A stretch of DNA of 64,000 nt from contig DAIDIP010000017.1 in assembly GCA_027451745.1 (NCBI GenBank), positions 21,883 to 85,882 of the forward strand. Direction: 5' to 3'. Both the position numbers and the translations under genes were made by a program. Source of the stretch: Candidatus Melainabacteria bacterium (lineage in GTDB: Bacteria > Cyanobacteriota > Vampirovibrionia > Obscuribacterales > Obscuribacteraceae). This document shows positions 26,541-32,930 of the stretch, in pieces. Numbering within the stretch: position 1 is the stretch's first letter; each line of letters opens with the position of its first letter. The notes beneath the pieces are model-generated. The model searched no databases. It was not told where the DNA came from and worked only from the letters and a program-made list of their open reading frames with translations.

Positions 26541-26613
<73 letters not shown>

Positions 26614-26732
26614 ATAATGCGCCCGGTAAAGCTTCTATGAGCACCCATAGCTTGCCAAATATATCACATTAGTGTGGTCAAGTAGCAGGCTGCGAAACGG
26701 AGCGGAACGAAATGAAATATAGCTTGGCCAAA

Positions 26733-26954
26733 GCAGCGCTAAAGAATGACAGAAGGAGATATGGCGGAACGAAGGGCGGCTATGCCGTCCGAAGTAAAGC
26801 GTCTGTACGCGCGTCTGGGCAAGCGGAGCGCAGACCAGGCAGTGCTAAAAGTTTAGATGGATGAAGTGAAGCGAACGGCGACGGTGAGGCGGCGGAAGCT
26901 GAACGAAGTAAAGTACGCGCGTCTGGGCAAGCGGAGCGCAGACCAGGCAGCGCT
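26733..26954. repeat. Tandem intergenic repeat, about 107-base units
   Basis: Two consecutive units are bounded by the motif GCAGYGCT at 26733, 26839 and 26947 (spacings 106 and 108). An identical 37-base block occurs at 26806-26842 and 26914-26950, and each copy contains an inverted GTCTG/CAGAC pair. The block is preceded in both units by CGAAGTAAAG; the second unit lacks six bases there. The stretch 26690-26732 looks like a third, decayed unit (it also has GCGGAACGAA). The repeat is more GC-rich than its surroundings, fills the gap between tRNA-Phe and the next gene, and ends at the stop codon of that gene. The rest of this 340-base gap has no gene that I can see. Confidence 0.85.
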
Positions 26955-27607
26955 TAATATATAGACGAGCTTTGTGTGGATATTTGATTGTTTATCCCAA
27001 CGATGCGCAAACCTGTATCGCCTTTGCGAACTAATAAATTCATTTGAACTTGATTTGCTGCCGGTCTAGCATTTGCTGATTGCATTACCAAAGTTCCATT
27101 CAAGCTCACGACGATTGAATGGTCAGGGTTAATTGCCACTGCCCTTATCGAAATTGGTTGGAAAGCGCCTACTGACGCTCCAGAGCATACTTGTTGAGAT
27201 ATTTCGGGTGTCCAAAAAGCTTCATTGAAAGCTTTTAAGGTTTCAGGTGACATCCAATTAGCGGCTGCTTCATGACTTTGAGCAGCAGATTTAGGGGTAA
27301 AATCCATTGCTGCTTTCATCCACCATTTAACAAAATCCACTGCCAGAGCAGGATCTAATTGTACTTTTTTTGCATAATCATTTGCTGGCACACTAGCGTC
27401 TGTTGACTCAGAATTATTTTTAGAAGGCATACTCTGGCTTTGAGCGAGCTTACTTACAGGTGGTTCATCTTTATTACCGTTGTTGAAGCCGCCAACAAAA
27501 AAGCCAAGTAAACAGACAATAAGAAGCCCTAGGAGAATCTTATCGTTAAATATTCTTTGTATCGTTGTCCTGACAATATCCTGAAACATAAAACGGTTCC
27601 CAAACAC
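26954..27607 (-). CDS. Single-pass membrane protein of unknown function
   Basis: A 217-residue protein with one membrane helix near residues 24-41 (ILLGLLIVCLLGFFVGGF), a Ser/Asn/Pro-rich linker and a C-terminal domain of about 130 residues. That domain contains VDFVKWWMKAAMDFTPKSA and then several beta strands (RAVAINPDHSIVVSLNGTLVM), a layout that would suit an NTF2-like or VirB8-like periplasmic fold, though nothing diagnostic is present. The tandem repeat abuts its stop codon. Confidence 0.55.
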   Translation of the reverse strand: MFGNRFMFQDIVRTTIQRIFNDKILLGLLIVCLLGFFVGGFNNGNKDEPPVSKLAQSQSMPSKNNSESTDASVPANDYAKKVQLDPALAVDFVKWWMKAAMDFTPKSAAQSHEAAANWMSPETLKAFNEAFWTPEISQQVCSGASVGAFQPISIRAVAINPDHSIVVSLNGTLVMQSANARPAANQVQMNLLVRKGDTGLRIVGINNQISTQSSSIY

Positions 27608-31730: not shown

Positions 31731-32930
31731 GTGAGTCTGGAAATCCTAATTATCAGACTATCTGCCCTGGGTGATGTGGTGCATACACTACCGGTGGCGG
31801 CAGCTATAAAACGTTATTTACCCGACGCAAAAGTAACTTGGGTGGTGCAAGATTTAGCTGCTCCCCTGCTGAAAGACAATCCAGCTGTGGATAATGTCAT
31901 CATATTCCCAGGAAAAGCTATGCTACCAGGATCGGTGGCTTCACCGCCCGCGGTTAGTTCTATACGTGAGCGCTGCCTCGCCTTCGTGCCTTGGCTCAAC
32001 GCGCGTAAAGACGCTTGCCAAACTGACGGCTCTTCGCCGCCAGTGGCTCGCTCTATTTCGTCTTTAGCCCTCCTAAACCAGTTCTGGGGGGGATTTAAGT
32101 CTAGACGTTATGACATCGCCATTGATGCCCAAGGACTTCTTAAAAGCGCTCTTTTATGTTGGTTATCAGGTGCCAAAACCCGTATAGGCTTTGCCAATAC
32201 CCGTGAATGGGCAGACAAATTCCTCACCCATCCGGTTGATGTAGGTGATTATTTTGGACCTGATATACATATAGTAGATTTAAATCTTAAGCTTGTTGTT
32301 AAATTGTTCGATGTTCTTGGTAATAATGTGCCAGCTAACTGGGTAAATGCTCAATTCTCATTACCGGTGGTGCCTCAGCTTATAAAAGAACGGGTACAAT
32401 CCTGGCTGCCTAGTTCAAAGCAGCGTCTAGAAAACATCATTCTAATACCAGGCACCACGTGGGACACTAAAATATGGCCGCTAGAAAAATGGGAAGAATT
32501 AGGAAAACGGTTATTAGACAACAATTATTACCGCATCATTATATGTGGTGGCAGATCTGATTTAGCTATCAACAAAAAACTGGAAAAACGTCTTTCTAGT
32601 TGTGATAATCAAAAGATCATTAATCTCACGGGTCGGACAAACCTTATCGATCTAATAGCCTTATTTGAACAATCTCAACTTGTAATAGGCGCTGATAGTG
32701 GACCAATACATTTAGCTAGTGCGGTAAGCAAACCAAAAGTGGTGGCTATTCATGGCGCTACACCGTGGAAACGAAACGGACCTTATGGAAAACTTGGACA
32801 TGCTATTGCACTCAATCTAGAATGCCAGCCATGTTTTGAAAAACAATGCCCACTTCATACATTAGCCTGCTTGAAAGACCTTAGCGCTGAACAAGCCTTT
32901 CACGAAGTAAATGCATTCGTGGAAAAATAA
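31731..32930 (+). CDS. Glycosyltransferase family 9 (heptosyltransferase-like) with an internal repeat-derived insert
   Basis: A 399-residue GT9 enzyme that adds heptose or a similar sugar to the inner lipopolysaccharide core. The N-terminus ILIIRLSALGDVVHTLPVAAAI, the motif IPGTTWDTKIWPLEKWEEL and the C-terminal VIGADSGPIHLASA..KVVAIHGAT are typical. Between residues about 64 and 113 there is an insert rich in Ser, Pro, Ala and Arg, more GC-rich at DNA level, lying just before the conserved RRYDIAIDAQGLLKSA. It matches the intergenic repeat at 26.7 kb. Start is GTG; AAGGAG lies unusually far upstream (13 bases). Confidence 0.87.
   Translation: MSLEILIIRLSALGDVVHTLPVAAAIKRYLPDAKVTWVVQDLAAPLLKDNPAVDNVIIFPGKAMLPGSVASPPAVSSIRERCLAFVPWLNARKDACQTDGSSPPVARSISSLALLNQFWGGFKSRRYDIAIDAQGLLKSALLCWLSGAKTRIGFANTREWADKFLTHPVDVGDYFGPDIHIVDLNLKLVVKLFDVLGNNVPANWVNAQFSLPVVPQLIKERVQSWLPSSKQRLENIILIPGTTWDTKIWPLEKWEELGKRLLDNNYYRIIICGGRSDLAINKKLEKRLSSCDNQKIINLTGRTNLIDLIALFEQSQLVIGADSGPIHLASAVSKPKVVAIHGATPWKRNGPYGKLGHAIALNLECQPCFEKQCPLHTLACLKDLSAEQAFHEVNAFVEK
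31969..32041 (+). repeat. Coding copy of the dispersed repeat inside the glycosyltransferase gene
   Basis: Three blocks occur in the same order and nearly the same spacing as in the reverse complement of the 26.7-27.0 kb repeat: AGCGCTGCCT (31969-31978, identical), ACGCGCGTA.AGACGCTT (31999-32016, 17 of 18 bases) and GACGGC followed by GCCGCC (32025-32041). The spacers are 20 and 8 bases here against 22 and 7 in the intergenic copy. The reading frame stays open through it. Confidence 0.7.

Follow-up and report, generated by a model that had tools for sequence, protein, structure and literature searches.

A dispersed repeat with two predicted hairpins lies in frame within a GT9 glycosyltransferase gene of a Candidatus Melainabacteria bacterium

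In-frame colonization of genes by short repeats is best known from Rickettsia. Rickettsia palindromic elements (RPEs) are described as dispersed repeats of 100–150 bp with same-place insertions in orthologs (PMC4316617, PMC2229807, PMC3767692). They insert in intergenic regions, functional RNAs and coding sequences (PMC4316617), among them tmRNA and RNase P RNA (PMC2229807), and RPE-1 to RPE-3 are frequent in open reading frames (ORFs) (PMC3767692). Bacterial miniature inverted-repeat transposable elements (MITEs), such as ERIC, RUP, Correia and CIR, are described as small, non-autonomous repeats that occasionally give rise to fusions in frame, and according to a table note the 5′ and 3′ sections of CIR form stem-loops independently (PMC10969869, PMC2229807). 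Here a different-looking element from another phylum is described in a 64,000-nucleotide stretch of Candidatus Melainabacteria DNA (Obscuribacteraceae; contig DAIDIP010000017.1 of assembly GCA_027451745.1), which is called the window below. A gene in the window for a heptosyltransferase-like glycosyltransferase of family 9 (GT9) carries an extra segment that we regard, at a probability of about three in four, as a copy of a dispersed, roughly 110-bp, two-hairpin family repeat, likely a non-autonomous mobile element tolerated as a loop. The features concerned, in window positions, are as follows.

31731..32930, plus strand: GT9 (heptosyltransferase-like) host gene of 399 aa (ORF; Pfam PF01075 Glyco_transf_9, E 9e-42)
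31959..32060, plus strand: complete in-frame insert in GT9, residues 77–110, 34 codons, 102 bp (alignment against the element-free homologs P0012–P0016)
31969..32052 (C17:53851-53934), plus strand: dispersed-repeat copy in GT9 (match of model R1)
26760..26846 (C17:48642-48728), minus strand: intergenic repeat copy, first of a tandem pair (R1, 68 bits)
26862..26955 (C17:48744-48837), minus strand: intergenic repeat copy, second of the tandem pair, a direct repeat (R1, 73.6 bits)

The extra segment of GT9 belongs to a dispersed repeat and keeps the reading frame. With positions 31930–32100 as the blastn query, 21 other places in the same genome were matched at E≤0.003, the best at 9.3e-13 with 85% over 62 bp. 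Model R1, which was built from 21 copies and 92 positions with the GT9 copy excluded, matches the GT9 copy at 50.1 bits (E 6e-13), collinearly over model positions 2–87; six of its 21 rows (L036, L041, L046 twice, L048 and L051) were first found by the search with the GT9 query. The preliminary description of this DNA had proposed such an in-frame repeat and its match to the intergenic repeat at 26.7–27.0 kb, and both proposals hold; R1 scores both loci. Positions 26790–26960 as the query found 20 other places in the genome at E≤0.01, several of them common to the GT9-region query. The two intergenic copies are spaced by 108, and the window contains ACGCGCGT three times, where 0.23 occurrences would be expected. 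The same description had put the insert at about 50 residues; the protein alignment, from which its boundaries are taken, gives 34, and the resulting 102 bp is a multiple of 3.

R1 finds at least 56 copies, the GT9 copy among them, in the 3.0-Mb genome of the window at E≤0.01, a lower bound given that 150 of 371 first-look candidates were scored. An ordinary loop expansion that resembles the repeat by chance or low complexity is hardly credible. In its favour, a related genome of the same genus (the congener, G010) has another insert there, which is single-copy and differs from the repeat, but the R1 match is significant and collinear, and a control segment of 126 bp taken from the same region of the congener's GT9 finds no family, with no other match below E 0.16 in two genomes. 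Chance likeness is ruled out by the blastn matches of the GT9 region, the R1 score and this control. The congener's own insert, being single-copy in the two genomes, gave no lead; its presence indicates that the GT9 loop tolerates unrelated expansions.

Among 27 aligned GT9 homologs, nothing lies at the insert position in 16, a different insert in eight, and the element in three (P0001, P0002 and P0011). Residues 77–110 have no counterpart in P0012–P0016; P0012, for instance, runs directly from PPVVNP to VKQLTDFW. In P0002 (76% identity) and P0011 (60%) the element occupies the identical position in the same frame, with SIFKRCLG ... NARQDARL.DGSSP. Alignment with orthologs, which had been suggested as a check on the insertion, thus gives a divided answer, with the segment shared by these two homologs and absent from P0012–P0016 and from more distant ones. 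An ancient GT9 domain is nevertheless ruled out by the latter absences, and the occurrence of the same DNA at dozens of other loci also shows that the segment is not an old part of GT9.

In the tree, P0011 groups with the element-free P0014–P0016 (support 100/98), and the approximately unbiased (AU) test rejected a grouping of the three carriers as a clade (p-AU 3.7e-53, for a carrier group that was named with a first tree already in view). Single origin of the insert by simple descent is ruled out by this rejection. The sequences would be explained if the element had entered this site more than once or been exchanged there, or if a single old insertion had been lost precisely several times. 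P0003–P0010, including the congener (L062), have an unrelated-looking insert of about 36 residues at the same loop, which might conceivably be a decayed early copy of the element. The loop of P0011 is longer (PGITQMPLG), which, seen at the protein level only, would fit the extended hairpin of some congener copies (L206). In L206 and L057, which form a subtype, the first hairpin bears an additional hairpin in its loop (GGCATAACTCATATGCC for L206), and P0011 may encode the same extension.

The closest solved structures to the GT9 protein are those of heptosyltransferase I (6dfe and 2gt1, E 1.1e-26). Its AlphaFold2 model is largely confident, with a mean predicted local distance difference test (pLDDT) score of 81 and a predicted template modelling score (pTM) of 0.81, while residues 66–108 have pLDDT below 50. 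GT9 is therefore predicted to tolerate the insert because the insert forms a disordered surface loop. Alternatively, the insert could be a domesticated element, a functional and selected part of GT9 that alters acceptor binding or localization. It is kept in three homologs from two separate lineages with NAR(K/Q)DA and DGSSP, a point in favour of this reading. However, its disorder in the model, the empty position in 16 homologs and the different insert in eight make this improbable, as does the coincidence of the conserved letters with conserved DNA of the element.

The repeat itself has a core of 92 positions and a tandem unit of roughly 110 bp. In the congener, R1 finds 80 copies, many of them in arrays with a spacing of about 106–112 bp, with members of one array almost identical and separate arrays unlike each other. 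The nearest neighbour comes from the same genome for 68 of 85 copies, against a permuted mean of 47.5 (one of 2000 permutations as high), which suggests amplification within each genome. The reading frames of 60 copies show a mild excess of open frames rather than one fixed peptide; 3.2 of six frames are open per copy, or 192 in total against 175 ± 7 when shuffled. In a few copies the match ends after about 45–52 bp, behind the ACGCGCGTA core (L043:1500-1550, L047:1500-1551, L017:1502-1546, L198:1093-1139 and L210:1141-1189), so that copies of both genomes are cut short at their 3′ side at about the same point.

Genes are strongly avoided by the repeat, since only eight of the 56 copies in the genome of the window overlap an ORF of at least 100 aa while such ORFs make up 89% of the window. 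The GT9 copy is the sole one seen there deep within a Pfam-supported gene. Five more lie at ORF ends, including the stop of guaA and the start of secF, and two overlap ORFs of 103 aa. Gene-end copies were noted at the start of a lipoprotein-like ORF (L017:1470-3047, a truncated copy), at the secF start (L126:549-1520) and at the guaA stop (L108:1-1503). Forty-five of the 56 copies have two called neighbours and no ORF overlap, and their orientations to these neighbours show no bias (both plus 13, both minus 11, convergent 12, divergent 9). The lack of bias speaks against a leader or terminator role, and a regulator acting in untranslated regions is ruled out on this ground.

Two protein genes of the congener are occupied as well. 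The linker of PrmC holds one copy and part of a second, giving 55 residues, where the element-free linker has 25 residues in the genome of the window; of the eight further sequences aligned, six have a linker of about 6. The N-terminal linker of YceI holds a copy at a site that is unfilled in the other seven aligned. The coding strand of the GT9 copy is the pyrimidine-rich strand of the repeat, whereas PrmC and YceI read the purine-rich one.

An RNA gene is also a host. In the genome of the window, rnpB, to which the Rfam family RNaseP_bact_a aligns at full length, holds a repeat copy at the tip of a helix that we take to be P12. The P12 segment is 139 nt there versus 40 nt in the congener, and by sequence and fold the insert is a single two-hairpin unit. 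About 0.6 kb from this gene lies a further copy (L110:1501-1589). RNase P RNA genes of 428–467 nt were seen at L156 (G047), L224 (G002) and L225 (G020), and in G048 on length only; G047, G002 and G020 have large P12 tips with a sequence other than the repeat. Within this family, P12 seems to have received insertions repeatedly.

A structure-aware model, R2, was run at E≤0.001 on 60 genomes, 36 of the family and 24 others of the order and class. Matches were found in 17 of the 36 and in none of the 24, under strict filters and with at most 73 candidates scored per genome, so that a zero is not proof of absence. Nine family genomes have 7 to 73 matches each, the genome of the window 50, and the other eight have 1 to 6; lone weak matches in large genomes may be due to chance. 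With the nine, insertion, loss and structural constraint become countable. A 36-letter core pattern, too strict for distant kin, was matched among 84,980 species genomes in congener contigs only. One repeat query gave no blastn match in phage and plasmid collections, and viral contigs held no exact match of the repeat pattern; carriage by phages or plasmids is ruled out on these results. Searches of the open-licence literature found no earlier description of the element in this lineage.

Covariation predicts two hairpins for the repeat, and other genera keep the core of one of them. The covariation set comprised 60 copies less than 85% alike, and no structure was supplied. Nested covarying pairs delineate hairpin B (51-89, 52-88, 56-84, 57-83, 61-79, 62-78, 66-74 and 67-73), with two pairs per five positions, and hairpin A (13-28, 18-24 and 19-23); the remaining top column pairs either adjoin each other or are not Watson-Crick. 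For the outer GCGC stem of hairpin A, which hardly varies, the source is the first 21-copy alignment, from which RNAalifold recovered four pairs only. For 17 pairs, in an alignment made by a sequence-only model, 89.5% of 1391 cells are paired versus 78.0% in shuffles, double changes number 201 versus 77, and the covariation score is 0.290 versus 0.152. Slid versions of the structure reach 51.6% paired at most, and the innermost helix is paired in only 72.7% of cells. In an independent set of 22 copies from eight other genera, the top five covarying pairs are nested in inner hairpin B and are Watson-Crick in 19 to 22 of the 22. Folding of both strands places a hairpin of the GT9 copy in the covarying hairpin B region, where two of the eight B pairs are broken in this copy.

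32017..32047, plus strand: predicted 3′ hairpin of the GT9 copy, GCC AA ACTG A CGGC TCTTC GCCG C CAGT GGC

With RNA parameters, minimum-energy folds of the 60 copies recover 43–48% of the covarying pairs when the purine strand is folded and 20% for the other; with DNA parameters they recover 15–30% for either strand. On the purine-rich strand, the unpaired triplets are GAA opposite GAA and the like, which suggests sheared G-A pairs.

The preliminary description had regarded the segment as a mobile element living inside coding sequence. Its dispersal, its frame and the element-free homologs stand, and mobility itself we infer from presence and absence together with lineage-specific amplification. 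The purine-rich strand, folded as RNA or single-stranded DNA, would be the target of a mobilizing enzyme acting in trans, and the structure would be kept because the folded strand is what the mobilizing machinery handles. Each genome would amplify its own copies, and tandem arrays could then grow through unequal recombination or slippage. Selection would purge nearly all gene insertions except frame-keeping ones in loops, in linkers and at an RNA-helix tip. The covariation, pointing to the folded strand, offers a concrete handle for finding the mobilizing enzyme.

Several points weigh against a mobile two-hairpin element. Mobility was not observed between strains. No inverted repeat of at least 14 bp was found at positions 26600–27000, the only locus scanned, in a search blind to shorter ones, nor did inspection of the flanks bring out a target-site duplication. 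The Y1 transposase domain PF01797 was found in neither of two genomes (96% and 71% complete), against a match in five of 14 control genomes. The reverse transcriptase domain PF00078 was above the cut-off in four of seven genomes, yet had no match in G018, which has 46 copies. As to the structure, two of five measures are not distinguished from shuffles, namely pairs with a double change (13 versus 11.4; 57 of 500 as high) and further pair types (29 versus 30.9). Some of the copies counted had also served to derive the structure, and kinship among the sequences inflates the covariation counts. Hairpin A and outer hairpin B are not prominent in the other genera, where inner B alone is. Folding had been proposed as a check for a hairpin in the GT9 segment, and besides the predicted one at 32017..32047, its minus strand (z −2.4) is the only one of ten single-strand folds, from five copies, to exceed shuffles. 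G·U and A·C counts (39 versus 31) indicate no single strand, and the rnpB copy matches R1 only at positions 2–57, with 21 bits.

Retro-mobility by reverse transcriptase is not required, given the copies in G018 with no PF00078 match. A reverse transcriptase domain (E 1.7e-47) is present in the genome of the window at L296 (G000:C14:11510-12121).

An immobile structural or regulatory DNA or RNA motif, multiplied by recombination, gene conversion and replication slippage, could have reached GT9 by exchange instead of transposition. The homogenized ~110-bp tandem arrays of the congener speak for it, the lack of a mobilizing enzyme in the PF01797 and PF00078 searches agrees with it, and SIFKRCLG and NARQDARL are common to P0002 and P0011 despite hosts in different clades. 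Nevertheless, this explanation is unlikely, as single copies sit at unrelated genes whose counterparts in relatives are element-free, and as no orientation bias to neighbouring genes is seen. Returning to mobility, it is possible, albeit doubtful, that the repeat represents a new mobile class: a two-hairpin unit whose folded purine-rich strand is itself the substrate copied and inserted, with structural selection across genera, no known transposase, and in-frame re-insertion at one GT9 codon position in separate lineages. In that case the purine-rich strand would be held by Watson-Crick pairs spaced by GA-/GAA-type mismatch loops.

Comparison with known systems places the repeat beside several of them. 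REP/REPIN sequences occur as many short structured copies, mostly intergenic. The present repeat differs from REP/REPIN with its RAYT transposase in that no Y1 transposase was found in two of two genomes and in its ~110-bp two-hairpin unit, and identity with REP/RAYT is ruled out on the missing PF01797. In heterocyst-forming cyanobacteria, short tandemly repeated repetitive (STRR) sequences of heptamer units are located in P12 of rnpB; the rnpB insert described here is, unlike those, one ~100-nt two-hairpin unit. Bacterial MITEs are similar in being small non-autonomous repeats that are occasionally fused in frame. They differ in that no long terminal inverted repeats were found in the scanned stretch and no parent transposon is known for the repeat.

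The likeness to RPEs that the preliminary description had drawn is supported for the intergenic, coding and RNA-gene sites, while two predicted hairpins take the place of a single palindrome. RPEs have a long stem-loop with terminal inverted repeats, whereas the two hairpins here covary separately, and for want of the long palindrome the repeat is not classed as an RPE. It also forms ~110-bp tandem arrays, belongs to a different phylum, and is mostly intergenic, unlike RPE-1 to RPE-3 with their frequent occurrence in ORFs. In other respects the repeat resembles the palindromic elements of Rickettsia and Wolbachia in length (the 92-position core and the spacing of about 106–112 bp), dispersal, same-place insertions in orthologs, and a range of sites that takes in intergenic copies, GT9, prmC, yceI and rnpB. 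The same RNA enzyme, RNase P, is thus colonized here as in Rickettsia, together with protein genes.
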